Shown here piece after piece: positions 16,395 to 63,300 of a stretch of DNA of 64,000 nucleotides; the first letter of the stretch is position 1; every line of letters starts with the position of its first letter. A program made the position numbers and the translations under genes. The notes under the pieces were generated by a model. It was not told where the DNA came from. It searched no databases and saw only the letters and a program-made list of their open reading frames with translations. The stretch is from Tubulanus polymorphus (taxonomy: Eukaryota > Nemertea > Palaeonemertea > Tubulaniformes > Tubulanidae). Location: the NCBI RefSeq assembly GCF_964204645.1, contig NC_134030.1:21271110-21335109 (forward strand), in the 5' to 3' direction.

Positions 16395-19300
16395 TCAACG
16401 AGTTCTCCAAACCCGTTTATTTCTAGCCCGAATTGATTTAACATCAATAGTGAGGATGGTGTAAAGAAGTGGATTCAGTGACGAGTTGATCGGTAGGAAA
16501 AGTACCGCCAACCAAGCCGCCACTTGGTTCGGTATTTCTACTCGCAATACAGCGCAAAACTGAACGATAATTATCGGTAACCAGCAAAATAAATTACACA
16601 GATTTATCACTAAACTCCTACGTGCCAGAACCAATTCGGTAGGATCAGCTCTACCCGAGCCGGACCTGCTTCCAGATACGAGTCTATACATCTGTGCATA
16701 CGTCATCATTATTGTAGCAAGTACGACCGAGTTAAACACGGCAAATATAGCGAATGAGTATTGCCAGGCGTGGACATTGATGGATAGTAAATTCATAGGT
16801 AAACAAACGCCAGTTGTGCCGTAAAAGTTATTTCCGAAATAAGAAGATGACGATAGCGGTAGCATTGAAATATTGCCCAAAATGATCCAGCATATACAGC
16901 AAATACCGGACACATATTTCGATGATATAATTGGGCTTCCAGAAAATGGGTTGACGATATTCGAGTATCTCTGACGGGTTAGAATGAAGAGAAAAATCAA
17001 AGATCCCTCGCACGAAAAAGTCACTATAATCCCGGCGAGTCGACACAATGAACTATCCGTCCAACTTTCTGAATTTAGGAAATAAACTCCTTTATAGACG
17101 TAATCGGCTCCTGCGATCAGAAACAGATAAATCGACATCAGAAAATCGCAGGAGGCAATATTAATGATGAGGATATCAGAGGATGTGTTACGTGATTCAG
17201 AGGATGAAATTCGAAATGCTCGAACGCGAAGTAAAATGACAATTATGTTCGCGACAAAGCTGAATGAAGCGATCACCCAAATGATTGCTCTAAGAACAGT
17301 GTTACCCATCAGGTCGGAACAAGATGAAAATTGGTCGGCTTCCGGGAGACACTGGTCAACATTCGGAATCATGCAACAAAATTTGTACGCGTCAGAAGCC
17401 AAAGAACTCAATAATGTAAGACTGTCAAGAATGGTTCTAACTACGGTTATGACTTTAGAATTTTTGGTAAGATCCAGATTTCTAAGTTTTGTTAACCCGG
17501 CGAATGCGTTTGGTGAAATATAACTGATTCTGTTATTACTGATATCTAACGAATCTAAAGCTGATAAACCACTGAACACATTTCCACTGAGTAACGACAA
17601 GGAAAGTCCGTGAAGATCGAGATCGCTTAGTGAATTTAAACCTTGAAAACTGCCTTCTTCTAAATAACTCACTGGATTCCCAAAAATCAAGAGCACCTTC
17701 AAACTATACAAACCGGCGAATGTATTCGCAGACAATGATATTAAGCGGTTATATGTAAGATCTAATGTATGTAGATTATGTAGGTTTGAGAACGAGTTTG
17801 GAACAATATAAGACAAATTGTTACGTGAAATATTAAGAAGGTGTAGATAGAGGTAAGAAGAAAACGTGGACTCATTGAATACAACTCGATTTTCTGATAA
17901 AATCAGAACTCGAGTTGATGCCGAGAAAAGATCAGTAATTTCTACTAAACCAGCATCATCGCAATCAATAAAATGACCCTGACATTCACAATATTTTGGA
18001 CACGTGACGTCACAGTAGGACTCGTCATCAGTGGTATGTTTACAATTAATAACACCATCACAAACTTCTGATTGAGGTATACATCGGTTTTCTTGGCCAC
18101 ATTTGAACATGCCGGAACATGCCAAAGTCTCGCAGTTTCGCTCGTCTTCTGAATTAGGACAATCTGATCGACCATCGCACACCTGTCCCATCGGTATACA
18201 GTAAGATGCTGGACATTTAACAGTACCAGCTGGACATATGAAATCAGTACAACCTTGTATATGTTCGAGCCTTCTACATACCGGGTAACCAATCGGCATC
18301 CTTTCTAAAATACATCTATGACGTCTAGAATAACAATGAGGAGAATCGAAAGAACATCTTTGTTCATCAGATTTCTTACATAAGTTTGTGAAGTTAGTCG
18401 TACAGTAGTTCTCATCATTACAGTGAGTCTTCGGTTCAACAGTTATATTGGTTACTATCTCATCTTCTTCGAGGCTACCACCACAATCTACAACACCATC
18501 CCGATACATCAGAGAACTGATACATTCACCATTTACACACAAAAACCCTTTACATTCATCTGAAGAGCAGCCGATCTCATCAGATTTATCTTTACAATCA
18601 ACCAGTCCATCACATCGTTTATATTTACCCACACATTGTCCATTGCTACACTTAAACTGTTCAGAGGAACAAGAAGTATGATAGCACGAGTTCTCATCTG
18701 ATCCGTCAGCGCAATCTCGTACAAAATCGCACAAATTACTAACTGATATAACTTCTCCATCGGTACAGTGGAACTGACTGTGTAAGTTTGAACCCGAACA
18801 ATTGAGTTCATCTTCACCGTGTTGACAGTCGTTTCTGTTATCACATACGCGATGGTCGCTGATACATCTTTGATCGTTACATTTAAACTGCCACGGTTTA
18901 CAACCGCTTATAGAAGCCAACTCTTCATCAGTTACATTGTAGGAACATAGCACGGAATGCGCTACATCTGTGACATTATCGAGGGCAGTCATTGACCATT
19001 TCACTGTTTTTATATATGTTATTTCATCTTTAGTTACAATTGGTTTTAAAGCCAGAATTCTGTTATTTGTTGCCTTTGCTAGTATAACACCATATTGATG
19101 TTCATAATTGAATGTTTGAATCAAATGTTCAATTTTTACATTATTGGATATTACACCCATTTCGCCACCGATTGCAAGACACATTTTCTCTGCTTCACGA
19201 ATTGACAATCTGTGAGTATCACAGGCTGTAAGTATTTGATAGCAATTTCCAACTATACCAATCCATCCTTTACGACACTTGGAGTTAAACCTGAACATCT

Positions 19301-22300
19301 GAAAATGATAAGTATCGTTTTCGTTTGAAATATCAAATTGATGATCGATTATTGAGTTATTCGTGTCTTTTTCACAAATGAAAGTCGTTCGAGTCTCCTC
19401 GATTTGACACGGGAATCGAACCCAGTTCGCTGATCCTCGTGGATTATTCAGTATCATCGCCGTACACGGCATATTGACGTCATTTATCGGTTGTTTTCGT
19501 AGAGGAAATATCAATCCTTGAATAACTTCTGGTATCGTTTCGTTTACCATAGCAGGTTTAAACCACTCTGCGTAGCTCAATGGTTTGCCATCAGTCCACG
19601 TGTAATAACCATCATTCTGTTCAGAAATAAAATCCAGATTCATCCATCAACTTCAAAAATGGTTTTAGCATTTTTTTCATTACGATCAACTTCAAGACAT
19701 GAGCGTTTAAACTCAGTTAATGAAAAAAAAAAATTTGTAAAGTACATCATCAAACTTTTCAAATTTGACCATTCAATTAAATTAAAATTCTTCAATTCCA
19801 ATCGATTCTTATTTTTAGCATTATATATGATATACAATTTAGTTTCATCCATCAACTTCAAAAATGGTTTTAGCATTTTTTTCATTACGATCAACTTCAA
19901 GACATGAGCGTTTAACCTCAGTTAATGAAAAAAAAAATTTGTAAAGTACATCATCAAACTTTTCAAATTTGACCATTCAATTAAATTAAAATTCTTCAAT
20001 TCCAATCGATTCTTATTTTTCGCATTATATATGATATACAATTTAGTTTCATTCATCCACAGCAAAAATGGTTTTCTATCTTAATCATTGAAACCGTGAT
20101 TAACATATAGAGCGTCTGGAATCAGTTCATCAAATTTTGATCATTTTGACTTTCATAAAAATATCTTTCAATGAATATCAGAGAATTTTTAGACATTTAG
20201 TGGAGAATGAATGAATGTCGTTGCGTATTCAAAAATTATAGTCAATAGATATTTAAGTGTTAAACGCGTTACCTGCCGTATCAATCCAATCATCACAATT
20301 AGCGCCACCTGTGAATATGCCTCCCGAAGCAGTTTCGTAGCGAAGAGTTTCTTTACTGCCATCATTTCATCTTGTGAGTTGATACTGAGAAGATGTCCTC
20401 CGTATTTCTGTTGACAGTACATTTCAGCTTTCTCCCAATTCAGACGTTCATGTTTGATGTATCTGACACACGAAACACCAGAATCTAGAAAATCTGATCC
20501 GCAGCCATTATTCAGATGTGTTTGTGAAGGCGATTGTTGTAAAGTGTATTGAATTTGAAATATTGGGATTTTGTTTTTCGCTTCAAAGTAAACGTCGTGC
20601 CCGAGTAGACTGTACAATACAAGTCCAGGTACAGCGTTATTTCCACATATTTTAGTCTCGTGCTGCTGGTTAACTTTACGGCTACCAAGGTTTAAGACCT
20701 GTACCAGTAATAGCAGTTCTTTTGTATCCGAAAGTTTAGAAGCACTACACGAGGCCTGTCCGATGAATTTGAACAGGAATCTGATGTAGTAGTTCTGGTT
20801 CTCTGCGTAGTAAAACGAGTAAAATATTGATTTACTTACACCGAGAAAATATCCCGGAAAGTTCGGTGATCTGACGACTCCGCATTCCTCTCGCATGGGC
20901 GGGATCAATGCAAAGCTATTTACACGAAGAATCGGGGAATCTTTATAGGCCTGCAATCCCAAACATACACGGCGTATAACAATCATCAATGGAGTCCTCC
21001 AGAACATATAACTCATTTTTAGTAATGTAAGATGATTTGATACGAGACTGTTATTAAGAGATCGAGTAGTAAGAGTTATGGTAGGACAAATAATTAAATC
21101 ACGAGAGCATGTGTCAATTTGATATTCATGTTCTGATAATATATAAATGTTTTCTAAAGGAAGGCGCCGATTTTCGGGTGTAATCACCAGGCAGTGTGAC
21201 GTCATATTGATCTGATTTTCTCCTTCCCGTAAAACATACCCGTCACAGTCAGTAGGAGAGAAATGTAGATTTAACGTAGGATCAACTGTTAACTTGTTAT
21301 CCCAGTTATAAGCGTACCCTACTACAGTAACCGGTCCTCCTGATGTAATCAGACTGACGACGTTACGACCGTACCACCGACCATCAGGACAATACGGACC
21401 ATAGCGTCTAGCTGTAAAATTACCACCATCATATATATAAAATCCAGCTCTCTCGCACGTCTCTGATAAAACTGTCAGTTCTAATCCATCCTCATAGATA
21501 TCAACTTTATGTTTAAGTTCTATTGTATTTATACGATACATTAATGTTGTCTTCTTTGTCGTCGGGAACAGAGAGCGAGGAGGTAAACTGTAACCGGAGC
21601 CATATATCTACAAAATAAAAATGATTCAACGTATCAGATGATCAGTTTAACTAGTAGCCAGGGACCGGCTACTCACAAGTTGGTTGATAGTGGATAGTTA
21701 GCATTGACATAGTGGCATTGTTGAAAGTTCATTGTTACTATCAATGGTATTTATCCGTCGGTTGTCTTTAACCGACTTTCGAGCAACTGATCATTATTAT
21801 GTCTACAAAATATAACAAATCAACTATAGGTTGAATGGTTGAAAATTTATAACAAATATATATTTCTACGTTTCATGTTACTTGCCAGAGCTGAAAGATC
21901 AAAGTCAACTAAGATTTTTTGAAGATTTTCAAATTTGTTCACACGCGAATTCAGTCCAAGAAACATTTACTAGAACTACATTGATGACGTCATGCGTAAT
22001 TTGAATAATCGATTTTCTGAAGTCAGCTCAGATTTTTGTTTTGAGCTGAAAGTTTTCAAAGTCAGAATGGATATATTTTCAGTAATATTTGAGTTTCTGG
22101 ACACATCCTAACGACAAACTGTTAAATTTGCTCTGTTCCACAGAATATTCTATAGTTATTTGTATATGGATGGACAAAGTAACAATATCGATACAGAATT
22201 AACAAATTAGCTATAGCGTTTTTTATATCGTATTTCGTCATACGGTTTATGATTTTATCGCATTACAATAGCGTCACAGGTTTGATTAAGATAAATTTCT

Positions 22301-23648
22301 TTATCAGGTAATGAATCCAAATTTGATTACTTAAAAAACGTATTCGCTATTACTATATACCCCTCGAAAGAGAAAATCATTCATTTAAAATTCAGATATT
22401 CATTTGTTTCTAAAAAAACGGAGATTTTCTAGATGAAGCCGAGTAGTTACTTTTACTCACCCAGGGTTTGCGGACTTGTACGTCTCCTATAGAAATAGAT
22501 TTCACTTCAAATTCATTTTTTACATTCGATTGTAAAACACCTGGTCTTATTAAAACGCACAGTATGACGAGAAAGCCGTCAGATTTAACACTCAGTGATT
22601 CCAGGTAGTTGTAACCGAGTAAAATATCAGTTCCCACGCGTAACCCTTCTAGTTTATATACACCGATGACGTCACCGGATGTGCTGAGATCACGTGTCCA
22701 GTTGAAGACGATGTACTGTAACACCTGCACCGTGATAGACCAGCAGTGTAAGCGTTTTGATCGAGTTATTACGTGTAAACTGTTGTCATCAGGAATGAGC
22801 ACTCCAGACTCGTTATTAGAGATTTGAATTAACGGATTAGAGACGTTCCAATCAGATATTCTATACACCTGAACTGATAGTTGTGAGTTGATGCGTTGGT
22901 TTTGTAGCAAACTGATAATGGCTTTGTTTGTTTTAGTATAAAACGATGAAGGTGGATGCCCGGTTTGTTCTGGTATAACAGCTATAGGTTCACTGGTGTT
23001 CCATCCGTCGTAAATTTGAACAGTTGTCGCTGAATCAGCCCCAGGAGATAATCTGAAATCGATCTGTATAAACGTCAAATTCATAGCAAAACCATCCGGG
23101 ATCCCGATCCATTCCAAATACAATTTACATCGTTTAAAAAAAATTACGAATTTGTATCCTGTTGAAGTTTGTAATTTGTTTATTTTGAAATCGTATTTTC
23201 CGCAGATTTGAATCAATTTCAATTTGTTCCGTTCATAGCGATATGTGATATAAACCCGACTACCCCGCGTACCATCGACGTTACTTCTAAACATCAACGA
23301 GATCGAATCGTTACGGCGGATTTCATGTTTTCCTTCACCGCAGAATCTGTTATCGGACTCACCGACGAGAAGGTAGTTATCACTACAGAATATCGACGGC
23401 TCGATGTCGTAGTATAGTTTGATGTTGAAAGTTCCCGGTAAAGAGCTGTTGACGAACCAACGACATTCAACACCGCGCGTAAACGACGGGTAATTCGGTG
23501 AAACGATGTAACCGGACGTAGAATCGACGGGGTACCAAGTGTTGTTACAAGACGAACTGACCGTCACAGCGTCAGACAGATCAGCGTGTGCGATGTTAAC
23601 TCGCCAGACGATCAGCGACGCTATAAACAGCGCTCTCAGTCGATCCAT
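16395..23648 (-). CDS. CUB / C-type lectin / LDLa / LRR seven-transmembrane receptor 1
   Basis: Three coding exons on the minus strand: 22461-23648, 20273-21607 and 16395-19616, all phase 0, giving 1914 residues. Signal peptide MDRLRALFIASLIVWRVNIAHA. The start is the methionine shared with the paralogue at 57898. Order: CUB domain from Cys34 (GYIVSPNYPS), two CUB-like segments, a CUB-like at about 426-498, a CUB at about 638-753 (CGVVRSPNFPGYF), a C-type lectin domain at about 765-923 split by intron 2, a second degenerate lectin-like domain at 955-1065, six LDLa-type repeats at 1080-1376 (motifs such as CDGRSDCPNSEDERNC) with a Cys-rich insert, LRRNT plus LRRs at 1380-1572, and a 7TM domain at 1614-1897 (CWLP in TM6, NPLLYT in TM7). 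LDLa-LRR-7TM is the plan of relaxin receptors and molluscan GRL101; the lectin and CUB additions are seen here directly. The Asp/Glu of D/ERY is replaced (TRQRY). The cytoplasmic tail is about 17 residues. Confidence 0.88.
19645..20080. repeat. Tandem duplication of about 203 bp in intron 2 of receptor 1
   Basis: 19645-19846 and 19847-20050 are nearly identical (both with ATGGTTTTAGCATTTTTTTC and TTGTAAAGTACATCATCAAA), followed by a short third start (AAAAATGGTTTTCTATC). The duplication enlarges this intron to 656 bp, against 84 bp in the paralogue. Confidence 0.85.
21669..21789. mobile_element. MITE family G copy 1
   Basis: Imperfect palindrome with ends CTCACAAGTTGGTTGA and TCGAGCAACTGATC, and an inner AAAGTTCATTGTTACTATC. 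It matches 60243-60362, which has better-kept ends. It sits in intron 1 of receptor 1. Confidence 0.6.
21838..22145. repeat. Direct repeat of about 300 bp (intron side of receptor 1 exon 1)
   Basis: Shares long identical stretches with 23862-24160 in the same orientation, for example TTTACTAGAACTACATTGAT followed by GACGTCAT. The two copies bracket exon 1 of receptor 1 and its start codon. Confidence 0.8.
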
Positions 23649-25680: not shown

Positions 25681-26375
25681 AAATTAGATATTTTATCAGC
25701 ACACTTTCAAAAACTGATCGTCCACACTTCACATGTGTTCAGTGCTTCACCCGAGAAAGTTTTAATTGAAAATGAACTACAAACACCAGACATTAGACAT
25801 TTTATCAGCACACTTTCAAAAACTGATCGTCCACACTTCACATGTGTTCAGTACTTCACTTGAGACATTTCTAATTGAAAAAGATCTACAAACATCAGAC
25901 ATTAGACATTTTATCAGCACACTTTCAAAAACTGATCGTCCACACTTCACATGTGTTCAGTGCTTCACCTGAGACATTTCTAATTGAAAATGAGCTACAA
26001 ACACCAGATATTAGACATTTTATCAGCACACTTTCAAAAACTGATCGTCCACACTTCACATGTGTTCAGTGCTTCACCTGAGACATTTCTAATTGAAAAT
26101 GAGCTACAAACACCAGATATTAGACATTTTATCAGCACACTTTCAAAAACTGATCGTCCACACTTCACATGTGTTCAGTGCTTCACCTGAGACATTTCTA
26201 ATTGAAAATGAACTACAAACACCAGATATGAGACATTTTATCAGCACACTTTCAAAAACTGATCGTCCACACTTCACATGTGTTCAGTGCTTCACTTGAG
26301 ACATTTCTAATTGAAAATGAACTACAAACACCAAATATTAGACATTTATCAGCACACTTTTTAAAACTGATCGTC
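25680..26375 (+). repeat. 109-bp satellite, block 1
   Basis: About six units of 109 bp containing TCAGCACACTTTCAAAAACT and CACTTCACATGTGTTCAGTG. Because 109 is not a multiple of three, each unit gives the same 68-codon open frame shifted by one; these are not genes. The same unit recurs at 27123-28060 and, inverted, at 51430-51600 and 58873-59240. Confidence 0.9.
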
Positions 26376-26519
26376 CACACCACCAAAAAATAAGTTGTTA
26401 CCGGCATTTTATATATCTATTTTTCTTTTTCAAATATGCTGCAGCACCTTTATTGTTTGATAAAAATACATTGTTTGCCGAGATATATGCACGCTTGTGA
26501 AAACACGTGTTAAAAATAT

Positions 26520-27122: not shown

Positions 27123-28060
27123 TACTACAAACATCAGACATTAGACATTTTATCAGCACACTTTCAAAAACTGATCGTCCACACTTAAAATGTGTCCAGT
27201 GCTTCACCTGAGACATTTTTAATTGAAAATGAACTACAAACACCAGATATTAGACATTTTATCAGCACACTTTCAAAAACTGATCGTCCACACTTCACAT
27301 GTGTTCAGTGCTTCACCTGAGACATTTTTAATTGAAAATGAACTACAAACACCAGATATTAGACATTTTATCAGCACACTTTCAAAAACTGATCGTCCAC
27401 ACTTCACATGTATTCAGTGCTTCACCTGAGACATTTTCAATTGAAAATGAACTACAAACACCAGACATTAGACATCTTATCTGCACACTTTCAAAAACTG
27501 ATCGTCCACACTTCACATGTGTTCAGTGCTTCACTTGAGACATTTTTAATTGAAAATGAACTACAAACACCAGATATTAGACATTTTATCAGAACACTTT
27601 CAAAAACTGATCGTCCACACTTCACATGTGTTCAGTACTTCACTTGAGACATTTTTAATTGAAAATGAACTACAAACACGAGACATTAGACATTTTATCA
27701 GCACCCTTTCAAAAACTGATCGTCCACACTTCACATGTGTTCAGTGCTTCACCTGAGACATGTTTAATTGAAAATGAACTACAAACACCAGATATTAGAC
27801 ATTTTATCAGCACACTTTCAAAAACTGATCGTCCACACTTCACATGTGTTCAGTGCTTCACCTGAGACATTTTTAATCGAGAATGAACTACAAACACCAG
27901 ATATTAGACATTTTATCAGCACACTTTCAAAAACTGATCGTCCACACTTCACATGTGTTCAGTGCTTCACCTGAGACATTTTTAATTGAAAATGAACTAC
28001 AAACACCAGACATTAGACGTTTTATCAGCACACTTTCAAAAACTGATCGCCGAAATGCAT
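27123..28060 (+). repeat. 109-bp satellite, block 2
   Basis: About eight and a half units of the same 109-bp repeat as block 1, same orientation, with scattered substitutions. It ends abruptly in the middle of a unit at about 28050. Confidence 0.9.
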
Positions 28061-28857: not shown

Positions 28858-40456
<11,599 letters not shown>

Positions 40457-51807: not shown

Positions 51808-54800
51808 TCAGCGAGTTTTCAAAACCCGTTTATTTCTGGCCCGAATAGATTTAACATCAATAGTGAGGATGGTGTAAAGAAGTGGATTCAGTGACGAGTT
51901 GATCGGTAGGAAAAGTACCGCCAACCAAGCCGCCACTTGGTTCGGTATTTCTACTCGCAATACAGCGCAAAACTGAACGATAATTATCGGTAACCAGCAA
52001 AATAAATTACACAGATTTATCACTAAACTCCTACGTGCCAGAATCAATTCGGTAGGATCAGCTCTACCTGAGCCGGACCTGCTTCCAGATGCGAGTCTAT
52101 ACATCTGTGCATACGTCATCATTATTGTAGCAAGTAGGACCGAGTTAAACGCGGCAAAAATAACGAATGAGTATTGCCAGGCGTGGACATCAATCGATAT
52201 CAAATTCATAGGTAAACAAATTCCAGTAGTACCATAGAATTTGTTGCCGAAATAAGATGATTGCGACAGCGGTATTATAGAAATAGTGCTTATAGATAAC
52301 CAACATACGCAACAGATAACGGATACGCATTTCGGAGATGTAATCGGGCTTCCAGAAAATGGATTGACGATTTTTGAAAATCTATAACGCGTTAAAATGA
52401 ATAAAAACGTCAATGAGCCTTCACAGGAAATAGTCACCAAAACTCCAGCGAAACTACACAATGAACTGTCCGTCCAAGTTTCAGAATGTAGGAAATAAAC
52501 TCCTTTATAGACGTAATCCGCTCCCGCGATCAGAAACAGATAAATAGACATCAGAAAATCACAAGCTGAGATATTAATGATGAGGATGTCAGAAGATGTG
52601 TTACGCTTTTCAGGGGAGGAAAGTTGAAATGATCGAACACGGAATAAAATGACGATACTGTTCAGAAAGAAACTGAATGCGGAGATGACCCAGATGATAG
52701 CTCTGAGGGCTGTATTACCCATCAGATCAGAACAGGACGAAAATTGATCAGCTTCGGGAAGGCACTGGTCGACATTCGGAGCCATGCAGCAAAATTTGTA
52801 GGCATCAGACGCTAGGGAGACTAATGTTGTCAGATTATTAAAAATATCCTTTTCTGTAGAAATAACTTTAGAGTTATTGGTTATATCAATAAGTCTAAGT
52901 TCATCTAATCCCGAAAAAGCATATGTAGAAATATGATGAATTCTGTTACTGCTGATATTCAACGACTGTAATGTAGATAAACCTCTGAATACATTTCGAC
53001 CAAGGACAGATATGAAAAGTCCGTGAAGATCGAGATGTTTAAGAGACTTCAAATCTTGAAATGTATCGTCCTTTAAGTGACTAATTGGATTTTCAGTCAT
53101 CAATAACTCTTTCAAACTATACAAACCAATGAATGTGTTTGTGGATAAGTATGTTATATTGTTATATGTAAGATCTAATGTATGTAGATTATGCAGGTTT
53201 GAGAATGCGTTTGCTAAAATGTAAGACAACGTATTGAAGGAGATATTGAGCGAACGAAGATAAACATATGGAAGAAATGTCGTCATATCCAAGATAATTG
53301 TGTTATTTGACAGATTCAGAACTCGAGTTGAAGCCGAGAAAAGATCAGTAATATTTGTCAAACCAGCATTTCCACAGTCGACCAAATAGCCTTGACATTT
53401 ACAATATTCAGGACACGTGACGTTACAGAAAGCTTCGTCATCAGTGGTATGTTTACAATTAACAACACCATCACAAACTTCAGATTGTGGTATACATCGG
53501 TTTTCCTGGCCACATTTGAACATGCCGGGACATGACAACGTCTCGCAGTTTCGCTCGTCTTCTGAATTAGGACAATCTGATCGACCATCGCACACCTGTC
53601 CAATCGGTATACAGTACGATGCTGGACATTTTACAGTACCAGCTGGACAATCAAATTTTTCACATTTCAATATATGCTGAAGATTCCTACAAACTGGGTA
53701 ACTATTCGACATTCTTTCTAATATACATCTATGACGTCTAGAATAACAATGAGGAGAATCGAAAGAACATCTTTGTTCATCAGATTTTGTACAAAGATTT
53801 GTGAAATTAGTCGTACATTGGTTCAAATCATTACAATGAACTGTAGGATTCACTGTAATATTCGCATTTGTTACTAATTCATCTTCTTCTAGGTTTCCAC
53901 TACAATCCACGACTTCATCCTGATACAACTGAGAACTGATACAGTCCCCACTGTTACACAGGAACCCCTGACACAGTTGAGAGGTGCATCTCATTTCATC
54001 CGAGCCGTCTTTACAATCAGTGTCTCCGTCGCATCTTTTATACTTACTGACACATTGACCACTAGTACATCGGAATTGTTGGGGCAAACACGGGGGATGA
54101 AAACACGAGTTCTCATCAGAACCATCCAAACAATCCTTAATGAAATCACAGAATCCACTTATTGATATAACCCGTCCATCTGAACAGTGGAACTGTAAGT
54201 TTGAACCCGAACAGTCGAGTTCATCTTCACCGTGTTGACAGTCGTTTCTGGTATCACATACGCGATGGTCGCTGATACATCTTTGATCGTTACATTGAAA
54301 CTGCCACGATTTACAACCGCTTATAGAAGCCAACTCTTCACCAGTTACACTGTAGGAACATAGCACGGAATGCGCTACATCTGTGACATTATCAAACTGT
54401 TTCATCAACCATTTTACTGAGTGAATATAAGTGATATCATCTCTAGTGATTATTGGTTTTATAACTTGCAGTCCGCCATTGTAAGTCATTGTCAGTATCG
54501 AGCTATATTGATGTCGATATTGAAATATTCTTACTAGGTTCAAAGTTTCTATTTCTGTGTAACCGTTTATCACAGTTTCTATTTCACCATCGATGCCATG
54601 ACACATCTCTGTCGCAGTTTTCATATCTAAACCTCGATGTTTGTTCCAGTCCGTCAGTATTTGATAGCACCTTTTATTTATGCTTACCCAACCAACCGTA
54701 CAGCTCCAGCTAAAGTAAATTGCATCATAAATCATATTTTCTCGCATCGAAATTGTGTCGTTTTTCGTTGAATTGAATTTGTAAACCGTTGTATTTTCGA

Positions 54801-57800
54801 TATTCATTTTTTCCGATTCGCAAATGAAACTCGTGTGAACCTCTTCAATTCCGCAAGGGAATCGAACCCAGTTCGCTGATCCTCGTGGATTATTCAGTAT
54901 CATCGCCGTACACGGCATATTGGCGTCATTTATCGGTTGTTTACGTAGAGGAGATATCAATCCTTGAATAACTTCTGGTATCGTTTCGTTATTTGTAGGT
55001 CCATACCACTCTGTGTAGCTCAATGGTTTGCCATCAGTCCACGTGTAATAATAAGTATTTTGCTGAAATTTAGGTAAAAAATTATGATGGAATATTGACA
55101 GATTTTCGGCAAGGGAATCTTTGTTGGAAATATGTTTGGATATTACCTGCAATTTCAATCCTATCATCATTATGAGCGCTTTCTGTGAATATGCCTGTCG
55201 TAGAAGTTCCGTAGCAAATAATGACTTAACAGAAATCATTTCATCTTGTGAGTTGATACTGAGAAGATGTCCTCCGTATTTCTGTTGACAGTACATTTCA
55301 GCGTTCTCCCAATTCAGACGTTCATCTCTGATGTATTTGACGCAGGAAATTCCCGAATCTAGAAATCCTGATTTACACATATCATTGCGCCTTTTCGTTC
55401 GTAACTGCTTCTGTAAAATGTATTGTATGCGGAATTTTGGTATTTTGTTTTTCACCTCAAACTGGATTGATGTAGCCTTTAGACTGTGAAATATAACTCC
55501 TAGTTCAGTGAATGCATCACATAATCTAATTTCATACCTAGTTGACCCCGCGTCTCCGACATATTTTACTTCCTCCGCGAATAAAACGGAGTCTAAATCA
55601 TTTAAAAATTGTTTAATGCACGGCGTCGTTTCCAAGTGTTTTACAATAAATCGGTAAAACTGAATTCGAGTTCTGTTTGGTCGGGTGCCGAGATGGTATT
55701 TCAAAGTGATATCAGATTTCTTCGCTGATCCTGGATAATTCGGTGACTGCATGATTCCACACTCGTTTTCCCAGGCAGCTGGTGTGCTATGTTTTTTCAC
55801 TGATTGACAAACAAGTCTCAATTCAATGATGTAATTGTATATCACAAACAATCGCGAATCCTTCATCGTCACAGTGTGCAGTATGAGACTGTTATTCAGG
55901 CGCTGAATACTGAATGGCATGTGCCATTTACACCACGAGTTGGGGATCGTATAACTAGGATTACATGAGCTCAAATGATATTCGTGTCGTGATAATATGT
56001 AAATTACATTCAATGGAACATGTCTATTTTCAGGCGTAATGCTTAAACAGCGTGACGTCACTCTAACGTGGTGTTCTCCTTCCCGTAGAGTGTAGCCGTC
56101 GCAGTCAGACGGACGTAAGATCAAACTGCCCTTACCCTTCAAGTTGCTGTCATTATCAAGGCAATAGCCTACTATGATCACCGGACCGCCTGATGTAATC
56201 AGACTGACGACACTTCGTCGATAACCCAATAAACCGGGACAATACGGACCGTATCGTCTAGCCGTGAAATTACCACCATCAAATATATAAAATCCAGCAT
56301 TTTCACAATTCGCAGACAGAACCGCTAATTCCAGATCGATGTCATAGATTTCAACTTTCCATTTGAATCTATACGCATTTATTCGATAGATCGAAGTCTT
56401 TGGTGGAAGACTATCAAGAAGCGACGCATGTGACAATGAAATCGTATCCAGCTTGCGCAATATCTGAAATACATGAAAGTACAATGCATTATAAATCGCT
56501 TCATCATTATTCTAGTGAATATCTTTAACTTGCTGGAATGTGATTATAACATGTATTGCGCCGGGAACTGGTGAAATGGTAATGTTTGCTTTAATCATGA
56601 ACATTCTACTATTATTACAGGGGGTTTGCATCGGGTAGGTTATTGGATGATAACAAGTGCAAATCTGCAAGTTTGAATACTATATCAGCACTTACCACGC
56701 GTTTAGTGATGCTTAACTTTTTCAAAATTGATTCCGTTCTGAATTCGATTCGTACATTCGATTCTGTGATGTTCGGTCTCATCATTACGCACAGTTTGAC
56801 GAGAAAACCGTCAGATTTAACACTCAGCGATTCCAGGTAGTTGTAACCGAGTGAAATATCAGTTCCTACAACGCGTAACCCTTCTAGTTTATATACACCA
56901 ATGACGTCGACGGATTCGCTGAGATCACGTGTCCAGTTGAAGACGACGTACTGTAACACCTGCACTGTGATAGACCAGCAGTGTAAGTGTTTTGATCGAG
57001 TTATTACGTGTAAACTGTTGTCATCAGGAATGAGCACTCCAGACTCGTTATTAGAGATTCGAATCAACGGATTAGAGACGTTCCAATCTGATATTTTGTA
57101 CACCTGAACTGATAGTTGTGTGCTAACGCGTCGGCCTCGTAGCGAAGTGAAAATGGCTTTGTTAGTTTTAGTATAAAACGATGAAGGTGGATGTCCACGT
57201 TGTTCACCCATAATCGCTATCGGTTCACTGCTGGTATTCCAACCGTCATAGATTCGAAAACTCGAAACTGAATCGACATAAGTAAAACTATACTTCAGTT
57301 TTAGGTCGAAATCTGAAAACGTCAAATTCATCGCTGAACCATCCGAGAGGGCGTCCCATTCTAGGAATATCTGACATCTGGCAAGTAGTAACATCGCGAA
57401 TTTGTATCCAGTCGATGTTTTCATTTCATTCAATCGAAAACCGAACCTCCAGCAGTTGTGACTGATTCTAAATCGGCTTCGTTCAAAACGATATATGATA
57501 TAAACCCGACTACTCCGCGCACCATCGACGTTACTTCTAAACATCAACGAGATCGAATCGTTACGGCGGATTTCATGTTTTCCTTCACCGCAGAATCTGT
57601 TATCGGACTCACCGACGAGAAGGTAGTTATCACTACAGAATATCGACGGCTCGATGTCGTAGTATAGTTTGATGTTGAAAGTTCCCGGTAAAGAGCTGTT
57701 GACGATCCAACGACATTCAACACCGCGCGTCAACGACGGGTTATTCGGCGAAACGATGTAACCAGACATAATATCGACTGGGTACCAAGTGTTGTTACAA

Positions 57801-57898
57801 GACGAACTGACCGTCACAGAGTCAGACAGATCAGCGTGTGCGATGTTAACTCGCCAGACGATCAGCGACGCTATAAACAGCGCTCTCAGTCGATCCAT
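51808..57898 (-). CDS. CUB / C-type lectin / LDLa / LRR seven-transmembrane receptor 2
   Basis: Minus-strand exons 56696-57898, 55147-56463 and 51808-55062, giving 1924 residues with the same plan as receptor 1. The start is the conserved MDRLRALF signal peptide. Domain order: CUB and CUB-like repeats, C-type lectin domain interrupted by intron 2, second lectin-like domain, six LDLa-type repeats (CKSWQFQCNDQRC to the repeat ending DDEAFC), LRRNT and LRRs, then 7TM (52713 down to about 51862). TM3 ends LTRYRF instead of D/ERY; TM7 has NPLLYT; the tail is short. Intron 2 is only 84 bases, a multiple of three without a stop, so the reading frame runs through it; GTAATA and TTTCAG borders and the paralogue support splicing. 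Ligand unknown. It is 1.3 kb downstream of, and convergent with, VWA gene 2. Confidence 0.88.
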
Positions 57899-60126
57899 CA
57901 GTACATGAATGAAATTCCTTCACTATTCAAATTCTGATCGGTTGTCCACAGAGCTTCAAGTTCCATTCATAAATGAGGTAGAATTTTACATTTCTTACTC
58001 GTGAAATTCAGTATTTGCTTCACTCAGCAATTTAAAATCCAGCAATTATTTTCAACCGCTGATATTTTGTCGAAATCGCATATGATATTTTTACTCGTTC
58101 TGTCATTAGTGTTGGCTCTGACTCAAACGATCAACATCCCAGTAATTACCATCGATCTGTGCAGCAATTCTCAGTTTCATAACGCGTGGTTATTTCTGTG
58201 TCCAATCATATTTCAAAAATACCCGGAATATTTTCTCATCGTTCGGGCGGTTTCTGAATTATCGCAGATGCTCTACGCAAGTGTACAGGGTGTTTCAAAA
58301 CGGTGATGTAAATCTACTTTCGTTTGACAATTCTAGATAACTGAAAGGATTTCTCAAAATATCATTCATGATTTACTAAGTTTATAGGTTACGCAGTTCC
58401 TTTGTAGATAATTGGGTAATCTTGATTTTCGTTGCAGCAAATATGGCCGAGGTGCTAATTAGTGACACGTAACCCTGGGTTCTTCGAAGAACGCCTGAAG
58501 AACCCTTCGTTCAAAGAGTGCAGCCTTACCCTCCGACGTGAGCCTAACATTTTTCAACAACTTCAGCAAAGATGCTCGATGTCTTAATAAGAACGACAAA
58601 TTCTATTATCTTTAACAATTAATGGTTGGATTAATCTATAAACCTTGAATGAGCTTAAACGTAGAAATATTTAAAAAAATCTTAGAAATAAAATTGTTAA
58701 AGTTTTCTGATCTCTAACATTCTGTCAGTTTATTCTTGTGTTGGTTACTGATGTTCTATCTATGCAACGAGAAGCACATTTCCCCCAAGGCATTTTACCT
58801 GAGAGAGGCTGACGATGAAGAGAGGGAAGAATATATTTTCATATCAACTTCATAGAAAGAAAGGAATAAATAATGTCTCAGGTGAAGCACTGAACACATG
58901 TGAAGTGTGGACGATCAGTTTTTGAAAGTGTGCTGATAAAATGTCTAATGTCTGGTGTTTGTAGTTCATTTTCAATTAAAAATGTCTCAGGTGAAGCACT
59001 GGACACATGTGAAGTGTGGACGATCAGTTTTTGAAAGTGTGCTGATAAAATGTCTAATGTCTGGTGTTTGTAGTTCATTTTCAATTAAAAATGTCTCAGG
59101 TGAAGCACTGGACACATGTGAAGTGTGGACGATCAGTTTTTGAAAGTGTGCTGATAAAATGTCTAATATCTGGTGTTTGTAGTTCATTTTCAATTAATAA
59201 TGTCTCAGGTGAAGCACTGAACACATGTGAAGTGTGGACGATATGGTTGGATATGATGCCCCTTAATATCTGCCTCCACCAATCTTCGCCAAAAGAAAGA
59301 TTGATTCTTTTCACAAAAAAATAAATCTACGTCTTTGATTTCAAAACGGAATTTTGGAAATTCATATTGCCTTCCGGAAGGTAAGCTGGACCCGCCCCTG
59401 CATTATGTGTTACAATAGCATACAATACTTTATCTGGTGTCGAATTCGAATCCGGAATATGTAATAACATATGTTACCCATGAAATGACTTAACTCAAGC
59501 CCACGTTTTATAAGCGTTCGGAATCGCCCGTGAAAATCCCTCCTCAACATATCCGACATGAAACTGAATGCAATAAATCTCACAAATGAGATAATCATTG
59601 ATAAATGTAGGGATTTAACCTTACAAGCGGTAATCTTTGATAAATGGAAACCTGACACCTCGATCTTAAGCTCCCTATTTCATTTATGATATGTATACAT
59701 TATATGTTTACATGCTTGTACGTGCATTTCATTATCTTGGTAATCTTTGATAAATGGAAACATGACAGTCACACCTCTCTCTTGAGCCCCCTATTATATT
59801 TATGATATGTATACATAATCTGTTTACATGTGTACGTACATATCATTATCTAATTCTGTGATCTTGTAGTTAATGTAACTATTCATTTTGCAAATATTAA
59901 ATTTCATTCATACAACAGCAGTTACGTACGAGGGTACCGTTGTCGCACTACCACTGATTGTCACTCACGCGTAATACTGAGGCCGCTGCTCCGACCTGAG
60001 CGTAGCAGAAGTGCGACTTGGGTTAGGCTTTATGAGGCAATAAAACGTGGCAAGTTTTAAATATTCACACTGATTTGTGAATAGTTACAACTTACCGTGT
60101 ATTGTAAGTGTGAGTCTTATAGAACT
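57899..60126. other. Intergenic region upstream of receptor 2
   Basis: Contains the presumed promoter of receptor 2, satellite-bearing unit 58555-59240, a hAT-like end at 59382-59401 and a roughly 110-bp direct duplication (59630-59735, 59740-59850; shared GGTAATCTTTGATAAATGGA). A plus-strand open frame at 58001-58306 starts with hydrophobic residues but has no recognised domain. I call no gene here. Confidence 0.5.
58555..59240 (-). repeat. Dispersed unit plus 109-bp satellite, block 4
   Basis: 58555-58850 aligns with 50810-51170. 58873-59240 is about 3.4 inverted units of the 109-bp satellite. Confidence 0.75.
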
Positions 60127-60242: not shown

Positions 60243-60362
60243 CAGTTGCTCAAAGGTTGGTTTGAGTTAACCAGTGGATAGTTTACATAGTGACAATTAA
60301 AAGTTCATTGTTACTATGGTATCTATCCACTGGTTATCTTCAACCAACTTTTGAGCAACTGA
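60243..60362. mobile_element. MITE family G copy 2
   Basis: Palindrome with ends CAGTTGCTCAAAGGTTGG and CCAACTTTTGAGCAACTG and inner CCAGTGGATAG / CTATCCACTGG. It lies a few bases before the first recognised exon of the gene at 60388 and may lie in its promoter or first intron. Confidence 0.8.
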
Positions 60363-60387
60363 CCCCTGCTCTTATAATAGACGGATT

Positions 60388-63300
60388 ATGAACGGGAAAC
60401 TTGATACGACCCCCGAACTATCTGACTGGAACCGAGACGCGTGTCTGGAATCTCGGCCCGGTCAGTCTCGCCGTACCAGAGAACGCGACGAACAAACTCG
60501 TTTTTACGATAGTCTACAACGCGCGCTTTACGAAAACGACTTCCCAGAAACTGAAGATCGCACTAAATCGACTAGGAATAAACTACCAGATTCGGGTATA
60601 ACTATCGTCATACTGTCGTCGCCTATAGAATGCTTGCCGATATTGCTTCAAGGCGGATGGTCGTGCCCGGGAAATGTGCACCTCGTTCTGTCGACATCGT
60701 GGCTGTCCGCGAAACAAAGCGAGCGAAATCCCGACTTAAAGACCGTATATCTACATAAAGCGATTTCTATGTACGAGGGAGGTTGCAGTTACTTAAACGT
60801 GTTCGATCCACCGCGACGGGTGAGTTACCTGATGAATAACCTCGCAGATGATCAAGCTGTAGCTGAATATGAGAACGGGTTGGATTGCCCAACATCATCC
60901 GATAATAAGAAAATAGACGACAGAATTTGGACGCGAATTCTCTTGTCTCGGACCGGTTTATTTTACCCCGAGTGTTTAGCATTCTGTTACGATGTTTCGG
61001 GATACGAATTACCGCCGGATGGTGCGAACATAGATTTACAAAAGGTCGATGGACAAACCGACGTTGAGGTTCTAGTTGGTAAGGGAATAACAAAATTCCT
61101 TGAGAGAATCGACTCTCCAAATTGCCGTAAGGTACGTAACTTTGTAGTCCCTGAATGAGACCAATTCGTTGAACAATAAAGTTGAATTGACGAATCGCCT
61201 CAATTTGCTAAAGGATCAAATTTGAGTTGGTTATCGTGAAATTAAATGAATTTGAAATTAGTTAATAAAATAATAATAATCAAAATTTAATTGGTGGGAC
61301 ATTAAGCTAGAAATATTGATACCTTATTTCTCATTTCTGCTTGAGCTTAAACGTTGACCCGGCCAATCACCTACCCTGTACATTACCTTTTTTCAACAAA
61401 ATAATGGTCAAGTTAACAATAACTGACCCGGCAGTTATAGAAATGAACTGATTACATATTTCATTGCGGTTTGCAAAAGTGACCCGCCCGATTAGCAGAA
61501 ACAAGGTGTTATCTTTGTTTAGCCGTATCGTGGACGATGTCCATCGATTTTCACGGGTGCCTATAAGATATAAGATCTTCAAAAAAAAAATTGCTGGCCA
61601 TCTTAACACTCTAGAAACTGCTGAAATGATCTATCCATATTTTCAGATTTTCTATGGGGAGGGCCAATAAATTAATTTGAACCGGATTTTGGCTTGCAAA
61701 TCGAAATACTATCGGACAAGTCATCGAGTAGATATAAGACCGACTTTCTCACTTTATGCTAATAGATTTCACTGATACTTTATTGAAAAATGATTCGAAT
61801 TTAATTCAAATGTAGAAGAAATCTAACTGAATAACCTCCAGCGACCCCTGGTGGATCATCGCTAAAAACAGTAACGGCTCCGGTACCTTATTTGCGAGTG
61901 TGACCATGGTTTTAGAAGATATCAAATGAATTTCCACGTCCATTTAGATTTAGAAAATACCAATAAGATCAATTTATTTTTTGATACAGATCATCGTGAA
62001 ACCAATCAGAAACTCGTACGACAAACGAACAGTCAGCATCCATGATGAATCCGATTACGAAGGTATTTGTAATCGGGCTGTTGCTCTGCTATCACAGGTC
62101 GACTCCGGGAATGGCGTATTGATCGAAAAGTTCTACGATCCTGGTCCAACAGGTAGGCTATGATTTAAGTGATCTTCAGATTAATAGACCGCACATTATC
62201 TTCGACTGTTATGTCGAAAGTTTCAAATACTGAAAAGCCCTGTTGGATTGTACATTTAACCTCATGGCGGGACCAAGACCTATGAAGTGTTGTCTGCAGG
62301 ACTCGAACCGGCTTATCATTCGGAGCTCATTGCGAAGGCAAAAGAGTAACGCCTTATCCCACTGAGCTACTGAAACCGCTCGAGAATAGCGCTGTGAGTT
62401 AGAAGCTACAATTATATCATACGAAATTTTCATGATTTGAAATCATTTAACTTCGCAGCTGCCGGGAAGAATGACGTCACCTTTCGTATTAGCGTTATCA
62501 CGTGTAGAGGGCGCTGCGACGAACCAATCTCTACCGCTGTAACGTGCGGAGTCGGCCGCAGAAACGAGCCAATCACCGGCGAGAACACAACAACACCGCA
62601 ATCGATAGAAACGACGCTACGACGGTGGGGTTTAGAATCGGCCGAAATTGACCGTGTCAGAAAACGAGTTATGAATGATTCCCAAAACTTGCTAAGAAAG
62701 ATAATGCGTCACGAAAATAACGCCGCTGGACTCACAGATATGATAAGTAAGTAATTTTTCCATTTGATAGAAATGGCCGCGCGTGCTTTTTAATTTCACT
62801 GACCCTTTTCGTAGCGATATATAATGCTGTTTATTTGATAAACTGCGTATGTTTTAGAAAATAAAAAAAAAACATTCTCAACACCTCAAATACTGCCAAA
62901 TGGTGATTTCACCCAAAAAAAAAAATCATTAAAATGTATCTTTTCGGATATCATTGATTTTTCGGACGAGCATTTACACAAGATTATATCATTTGAGAAA
63001 GCAGCGTCATATAATAGGATAATGGGAGGAAATAAGTTGACGAATCGATGACATTCTATATACAAAGTAACGGAATAAGTAAGAAATTCGAGTTTTGTTA
63101 TGTCATTTGTTTCGTTCAATAACGAGACAAGTAGTTAACTATATAGGTTATCTATTTATTCGAAACACGAGCTTTCGCTGTTAATGAACAGAAGAATGAG
63201 TCATCTCTATTCACCTGATGAAGCTTCTATTCATTAGTAACGAAAGCTCGTGCGTCAAATAAATAGCCATAACCTATATAGTACTACTCATCCAGGAAGA

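Follow-up and report, generated by a model that had tools for sequence, protein, structure and literature searches.

Gene structure and domain composition

The 64 000-nucleotide stretch of Tubulanus polymorphus DNA analysed here (the window; C6:21271110-21335109, where C6 denotes the contig) carries on its minus strand (23648-16395) a three-exon gene for a receptor of 1914 amino acids (aa) that ends in a seven-transmembrane (7TM) bundle. Both introns are of the GT-AG type and in phase 0; these joints and the open frames confirmed the coordinates (16395..23648), exon number and length (~1914 residues) proposed in a first-pass annotation made from the letters alone. The gene itself held up; its membership in a family of at least 217 loci with hypervariable cassettes had been missed.

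All parts of the gene are given on the minus strand. Exon 1 (22461..23648, 396 aa) encodes a signal peptide, called by eye, a CUB domain (aa 41-123) and a stretch without a fold match. It is separated by intron 1 [21608..22460, 853 nucleotides (nt), phase 0, GTGAGT...TTTTGTAG] from exon 2 (20273..21607, 445 aa), which contains a part without a fold match, with a CUB-like SPNFPG motif recognized by eye, and the first half of lectin domain 1. Intron 2 (19617..20272, 656 nt, phase 0, GT-AG) harbours a 204-base-pair (bp) tandem duplication (19639-20075). Exon 3 (16395..19616, 1073 aa and a TGA stop) supplies the remainder of lectin domain 1, a second lectin-like part, six LDLa repeats (18018..18905, approximate limits; Pfam PF00057, six stretches, 1e-32), the LRR region (17436..17918, approximate limits; Pfam LRR_8, 2.8e-26) and a 7tm_1 bundle resembling RXFP1 (16461..17210; Pfam 7tm_1, 1.1e-21). 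The Pfam matches thus bear out the six LDLa repeats, LRRs and 7TM bundle that had been read from the translation. Two variable blocks were delimited, the first at aa 541-760 (20516..21175) and the second at aa 905-1055 (18975..19427); the latter takes in the end of lectin domain 1 and covers the greater part of the weak second lectin-like region.

Several CUB-type domains had been proposed, of which one is supported by both Pfam (1e-6 at aa 41-123 in the window gene, present in 11 of 14 paralogues) and a profile comparison with cubilin. In the latter comparison a 14-row profile of exon 1 paired one region (aa 34-145) with three cubilin CUBs (whole chain 7.6e-10, best single stretch 5e-4). The second cubilin stretch is the same receptor region aligned to a different cubilin CUB and was rejected as a further domain; neither Pfam nor the profile supported any CUB beyond the first. 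The ~640 aa from aa 141 to the lectin gave nothing over the Pfam cut-off and no PDB profile match, only scattered sub-threshold matches in one to four of the 14 members.

The Lectin_C match crosses the exon 2/3 junction. Exon 2 by itself gives a marginal value (7.2e-4, under the cut-off) and the joined exons a clear one (1.3e-8), which supports the splice; by Pfam the lectin part was found in all 14 modelled members at E<1 (weak). For the second lectin-like part the match is weak: UL45-type at 4e-4 (below the cut-off) in the spliced protein, with matches in three of 14 members when scanned alone and a profile match to the PLA2 receptor at 1e-3 in which no stretch passed. Of the two lectin-like domains originally described, the first stands and the second is weak. 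AlphaFold models of exons 1 and 2, built from two-row alignments of the two window copies, had a mean predicted local distance difference test score of 33.0 and 29.6 and were not used.

The second copy in the window lies on the same strand and consists of exon 1 (56696..57898, 401 aa), exon 2 (55147..56463, 439 aa) and exon 3 (51808..55062, 1084 aa and a stop), with an intron 1 of 232 nt and an intron 2 of 84 nt. The short intron 2 is free of stops, so that exons 2 and 3 fall within one open frame of 1567 aa (51808-56511). Similar frames of 1566 and 1568 aa occur at C6:21003404 and C9:2935109.

Fourteen copies were modelled: the two in the window and 12 fetched from C6 (eight), C12 (two), C9 and C10. 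Splice sites were picked by hand from GT/AG candidates, guided by alignment, and not taken from an unsupervised predictor. Without exception the 14 copies consist of three exons, of 394-406, 431-460 and 1073-1099 aa, respectively. Their introns are all of the GT-AG type and in phase 0, no internal stop interrupts the frame and the total length is 1913-1953 aa; the fetched sequences of L041 and L050 break off just before the stop codon is complete and are open up to that point. Five copies contain between them nine short introns of 82-232 nt. The explanation that the CUB/lectin exons and the LDLa-LRR-7TM exon belong to separate genes was rejected, as exon order, phase and open frames are common to all 14 copies; the same intact structure in each makes the window gene unlike two merged genes. 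The gene models thus support a single receptor that would join CUB, lectin-like, LDLa, LRR and type-C LGR 7TM parts, as first read.

Copy number and genomic arrangement

The genome (267.8 Mb, 77 contigs) was searched three times with peptides of 64-72 aa covering TM6-TM7, taking the best 150 of 379-381 candidates each time. The union, consisting of 150 loci from the first search and 42 and 25 new ones chosen by eye from the others, comprises at least 217 distinct loci on ten contigs: 88 on C12, 57 on C6, 42 on C9, 12 on C10, ten on C8, three on C4, two on C11 and one each on C5, C22 and C32. An open frame of at least 1000 aa is present in 181 of the 217 listed loci and one of less than 600 aa in 26. 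The loci are mostly arranged in tandem arrays, the biggest clusters being at C6 19.823-20.163 Mb (22 loci) and C12 4.754-4.947 Mb (21 loci).

A query with the LDLa-LRR-7TM part gave at least 54 loci (54 of 54 scored candidates), of which 49 lie between 17.9 and 22.1 Mb on C6; identity to the window gene is 76-92% across the other loci. At least 95 loci (95 of 95 scored) were obtained with exon 2 and at least 105 (105 of 105 scored) with exon 1, taken together on C4, C6, C8, C9, C10, C11, C12 and C32.

Could the copy number largely be an artefact of the assembly, with unpurged haplotypes, or reflect a decaying family? A four-locus block at C6 19.817-19.858 Mb recurs 232.3 kb away at 20.049-20.091 Mb with 99.89-100% identity over 5.5 kb per locus, and is either a very recent duplication or an unpurged haplotype; L033 and L034 are identical, L024 carries an early stop and the 26 frames below 600 aa may be added to these. 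In an all-against-all comparison over 5.5 kb of 30 exon-3 loci from the LDLa-LRR-7TM query described above, however, just five were redundant at ≥99.89% and six at 99.3%, four of them within the repeated block. Open frames in every one of the 14 modelled copies and constraint on the 7TM also count against this explanation, which is very improbable. The figure of 217 is a lower bound, yet somewhat inflated by recent duplication or unpurged haplotypes.

Divergence along the coding sequence

Mean amino-acid identity among eight C6 genes was 0.93 in the signal peptide and CUB, 0.85 in the remainder of exon 1, 0.71 at aa 397-620, 0.53 at aa 621-775, 0.88 in lectin 1, 0.55 at aa 926-1075, 0.86 in the LDLa repeats, 0.88 in the LRRs and 0.93 in the 7TM. 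These genes fall into two cassette classes, one formed by the window gene, L039, L045 and L049 and the other by L040, L046, L047 and L048. The median synonymous divergence (dS) between classes (16 pairs) was 1.20 in variable block 1 and 1.32 in variable block 2, with 0.32 in lectin 1 and 0.43 in the LDLa repeats. It was 0.06 in the first 140 aa, 0.19 in the remainder of exon 1, 0.24 at aa 397-540, 0.15 in the LRRs and 0.19 in the 7TM, close to the within-class values for the same five blocks (0.06, 0.17, 0.20, 0.14 and 0.20, respectively). Both variable ectodomain blocks are thus old and divergent, and the N-terminus, LRRs and 7TM are nearly homogenized. Variable blocks 1 and 2 have six cysteines each; all of those in the first and five of those in the second are invariant across the 14 genes, so the diversity sits on a retained scaffold.

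Ancestry also changes along the gene. Between the window gene and L047, dS runs from 0.03 through 1.26, 0.29 and 1.32 to 0.11 along the coding sequence. In the CUB (where L045 ties), the remainder of exon 1 and the 7TM, the window gene is nearest to L047; variable block 1 places it with L039 and variable block 2 with L045. A two-breakpoint scan placed a switch in the window gene at aa 587-1238, with 86% of informative sites L045-like inside and 37% outside; with third positions alone the switch was at aa 592-1236 (88% versus 32%). None of 300 permutations was as extreme in either case, nor in the scans of two further triplets, that of L047 and that of the second copy in the window, sites being taken as exchangeable in this test. 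The block distance matrices of the C6 genes form two correlated groups.

Introns were compared in ten C6 genes (45 pairs). Where neither L041 nor the second copy in the window was one of the pair, dS was 0.03-0.30 on either side of intron 1; where one of the two was, it reached up to 0.9-1.35 on the exon 2 side. Local alignment of intron 1 covered just 13-89 nt in 44 of the 45 pairs, eight of which exceeded the maximum of 46 nt (mean 23 nt) obtained with shuffled sequences. In the recent pair L039/L049 intron 1 aligned over 320 nt at 89% and intron 2 in full. For the 3' flanks, 1400 nt past the stop were aligned and pairs were binned by identity over the last 300 coding bases. Fewer than 150 alignable bases were found in all 56 pairs at 94-96%, 209 of 250 pairs at 96-98%, seven of 117 at 98-99.5% and none of 12 above; shuffled flanks gave a mean of 26 and a maximum of 63 bases. 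The GC content at third codon positions (GC3) is highest in the CUB (0.54), with 0.42 in the 7TM and 0.40 in lectin 1; the variable blocks have low values (0.31-0.32).

The simplest reading of these patterns would be non-allelic gene conversion limited to stretches that still match, which the introns, flanks and two cassettes would have escaped; conversion templated by cDNA is a bolder alternative. It is unlikely that the bimodal divergence instead arose from synonymous sites being under selection, from rapid turnover of introns or from differing duplication breakpoints. Insertions can replace introns, and the window gene itself carries the 204-bp duplication in intron 2, but the shifts in dS against L047 within one coding sequence and the changes of nearest relative count against an origin without conversion, as constraint alone gives no mosaic ancestry.

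Signalling core, lectin motifs and selection

Among PDB chains, the 7TM matched relaxin receptor 1 (RXFP1) at 3.7e-43, FSHR at 2.1e-18 and LGR4 at 1.3e-4; it is of the relaxin-receptor type, closer to RXFP than to the glycoprotein-hormone receptors or LGR4-6. The six LDLa repeats lie N-terminal to LRR_8, in the order of type C LGRs. In TM3 of the window gene QRY stands in place of D/ERY, with CWLP and NPLLY retained. The acidic residue of the D/E-R-Y motif is replaced by Q, Y or H in all 43 family frames read, and CWxP and NPLLY are retained in all of them; these frames (31 distinct, mostly from C6) include L033, L037 and L034, the last identical to L033. Loss of the acidic residue possibly alters basal activity in the copies sampled.

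Three distant relatives, L056 (C1), L057 and L058 (C7), retain D-R-F or D-R-V. By eye they share the layout of exon 3 (lectin half, second lectin-like part, LDLa, LRR, 7TM); in L056, the one of the three scanned with Pfam, LDLa, LRR and 7TM were confirmed and the lectin parts were not. Because these relatives share the exon-3 layout and keep the acidic residue, this layout seems to predate the expansion, in the course of which the motif probably disappeared. Judged by these features, L056-L058 are possibly close to the ancestral form.

The similarity to RXFP1, the closest among solved structures, would fit a peptide-hormone (relaxin/insulin-like) receptor family expanded by drift, with the extra domains being structural; GRL101, an orphan receptor of this type, has been proposed as an insulin-like growth factor receptor (PMC8286064). 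At least 217 loci with two hypervariable blocks stand against the single GRL101 per species reported in that source for the ambulacrarians studied, and the TM3 acidic residue has been lost. An expanded hormone-receptor family accordingly seems improbable.

C-type lectins bind sugar and Ca2+ through the EPN/QPD and WND motifs. A lectin motif was sought in 30 exon-3 loci, of which L014, L031, L033 and L034 were without it and L024 had only 13 aa before its stop; together with the 14 modelled genes, and minus eight duplicates, this gave 32 sequences, 17 of which were used for the ratio of nonsynonymous to synonymous divergence (dN/dS) in exon 3. The EPN/QPD position reads QPIND in 13 of the 14 genes and QPLND in one, and the WND position reads NWVRFPC in 13 and NWVRYPC in one. 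These alterations make canonical sugar binding by lectin 1 unlikely and weaken the earlier suggestion of a glycan-sensing receptor. Recognition of a protein type by the lectin folds is possible.

The 7TM has a dN/dS of 0.15-0.17, which indicates that the signalling core is under purifying selection. In comparisons of closely related array copies the ratio rises to 0.8-1.0 in some ectodomain windows, which would be relaxed or diversifying; positive selection is not proven by pairwise dN/dS. In this comparison the exon-1 models of L051, L052, L054 and L055 are 15 aa short (an upstream GT was used), and the windows reported are untouched by this.

Other features of the window

Arrays of a 109-bp satellite lie upstream of both receptor copies (25683-26380, 27124-28049 and 58867-59242), the last in the opposite orientation by eye, and other short satellites (69, 71 and 77 bp) occur between genes. 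Von Willebrand factor A (VWA) domains were matched between the two receptors at 37102-37617 (plus strand, 1.5e-4, just under the cut-off) and 39087-39479 (plus strand, 1.6e-16), and the two stretches are perhaps exons of one VWA protein. An open frame of 267 aa at 60355-61158 (plus strand) had no Pfam match at E 0.01.

Functional interpretation

From copy number, layout and divergence, the window gene probably belongs to a very large tandem family of type-C LGRs acting as a diversified surface recognition repertoire. In the mechanism proposed, non-allelic gene conversion would hold both ends of the protein alike among the copies, the secretion/CUB end as well as the LRR-7TM signalling end. The two cassettes would escape conversion and form the ligand-contact surface; the LDLa/LRR part would pass binding there on to the shared 7TM output, as in relaxin receptors. 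The likeliest ligands would be varied non-self or environmental molecules such as the surfaces of microbes, parasites or conspecifics. Tentatively, the family may be a germline-diversified recognition system based on a G-protein-coupled receptor (GPCR), with a homogenized secretion end and 7TM output and two exchangeable hypervariable cassettes.

The SudRes2 region of Biomphalaria sudanica is a schistosome-resistance region with 12 GRL101-like genes, of which ten are reported to have C-type lectin, LDL and LRR parts (Pennance et al., 2025; PMC12297450). By analogy it slightly favours immune recognition, and an immune use of the repertoire, plausible at somewhat under even chances, would be somewhat likelier than a chemosensory one. 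In the latter, the main alternative, the copies would be receptors for water-borne chemicals or for contact, each expressed in few sensory neurons. A GRL101-like gene is reported as raised in starfish sensory tentacles (PMC6267866), and GRL101 is listed among the GPCRs in a paper on the lobster olfactory-neuron transcriptome (PMC7510291). The diversity in the present family, however, sits in the very large ectodomain, and the 7TM is the most constrained part. Small odorants usually bind in the 7TM. A chemosensory repertoire is thus conceivable, at roughly one chance in three.

Several observations weigh against a conversion-maintained recognition repertoire with an immune use. In some pairs part of intron 2 can be aligned, over as much as 143 nt. 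Conversion should raise GC3, yet it is only 0.35 in the LRRs and 0.32 in the LDLa repeats. In the C6 genes the first 140 aa, although the most homogenized part, show no correlation with any other block (0.02-0.31), and the permutation test carries the assumption on sites given above. The variable blocks have a dN/dS of ~0.4, and among close copies a value above 1 was found in one 50-aa window only (aa 447-496, 1.54), outside both of them. The Ca2+/sugar motifs of lectins are absent from all 14 genes. The validated variant of SudRes2 is reported in a neighbouring Zn-RING-IAP gene and not in a GRL101 gene (PMC12297450).

If the proposed recognition repertoire is real, in a GPCR set of this size, with cassettes on a constant core, the diversity of recognition would feed straight into G-protein output. 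Most known invertebrate variable immune receptors are secreted proteins, immunoglobulin or lectin receptors, or NLRs. In this family invertebrates would then have an analogue of protocadherin or variable immune-receptor clusters, but one coupled straight to G-protein signalling. The orphan GRL101 class would also become testable: the cassettes predict ligand sites and the link to SudRes2 predicts a role in parasite or microbe recognition. The case further illustrates that a gene that seems to stand alone within a window can belong to a set of hundreds.

Comparison with described receptor families

A type-C LGR with a C-type lectin domain and a Ciona expansion of LDLa receptors are already in print. 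A CUB-bearing receptor of the GRL101 type, this copy number and a two-cassette mosaic were not found among the papers listed by searches of an open-access library (subscription papers and proteome databases were outside the search).

SudRes2 is the closest described relative. Both combine C-type lectin, LDLa, LRR and a GRL101-type 7TM in a cluster of paralogues, and in the window gene the lectin (Lectin_C, 1.3e-8) lies N-terminal to LDLa, LRR and 7TM, as in the SudRes2 type. The two differ in number (12 genes there, at least 217 loci here) and in the CUB, which is present here and is a term that occurs zero times in the main text of the SudRes2 paper. Unlike SudRes2 as described there, the present receptors have six LDLa repeats, a weak second lectin-like part and two variable blocks of mosaic ancestry.

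GRL101 and the type C2 LGRs of Lymnaea and other bilaterians share several LDLa repeats, LRRs and a relaxin-receptor-like 7TM (PMC11863921, PMC8286064). The number of LDLa repeats suggests type C2, an assignment made from the repeat count and not from a tree. GRL101 is described in these sources with twelve LDLa repeats and six LRRs, without mention of CUB or lectin, and with one copy per species in the ambulacrarians covered (PMC8286064). The ectodomain here is not limited to LDLa and LRR as in Lymnaea GRL101: the CUB exon and lectin stand in the same open model in all 14 copies.

The LDLRR-GPCRs of Ciona are likewise a lineage-specific expansion of LDLa receptors with a relaxin-receptor-like 7TM. 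They are described without mention of CUB or lectin, and include 14 members with LDLa but without LRR, plus 14 unclassified (PMC2396169). The sea urchin surreal-GPCRs resemble the present family as a lineage-specific expansion of rhodopsin-type receptors, but are described as olfactory receptors, without mention of a comparable ectodomain in the account cited (PMC5442662).

Clustered protocadherins differ in being adhesion proteins and not GPCRs, with shared constant exons in two mammalian clusters. In fugu they are similar in their tandem paralogues, with homogenized 3' parts and more divergent N-terminal ectodomains; the regional homogenization is ascribed to gene conversion, and EC2-EC3 is reported to be rarely homogenized in zebrafish and mammals (PMC1852091).

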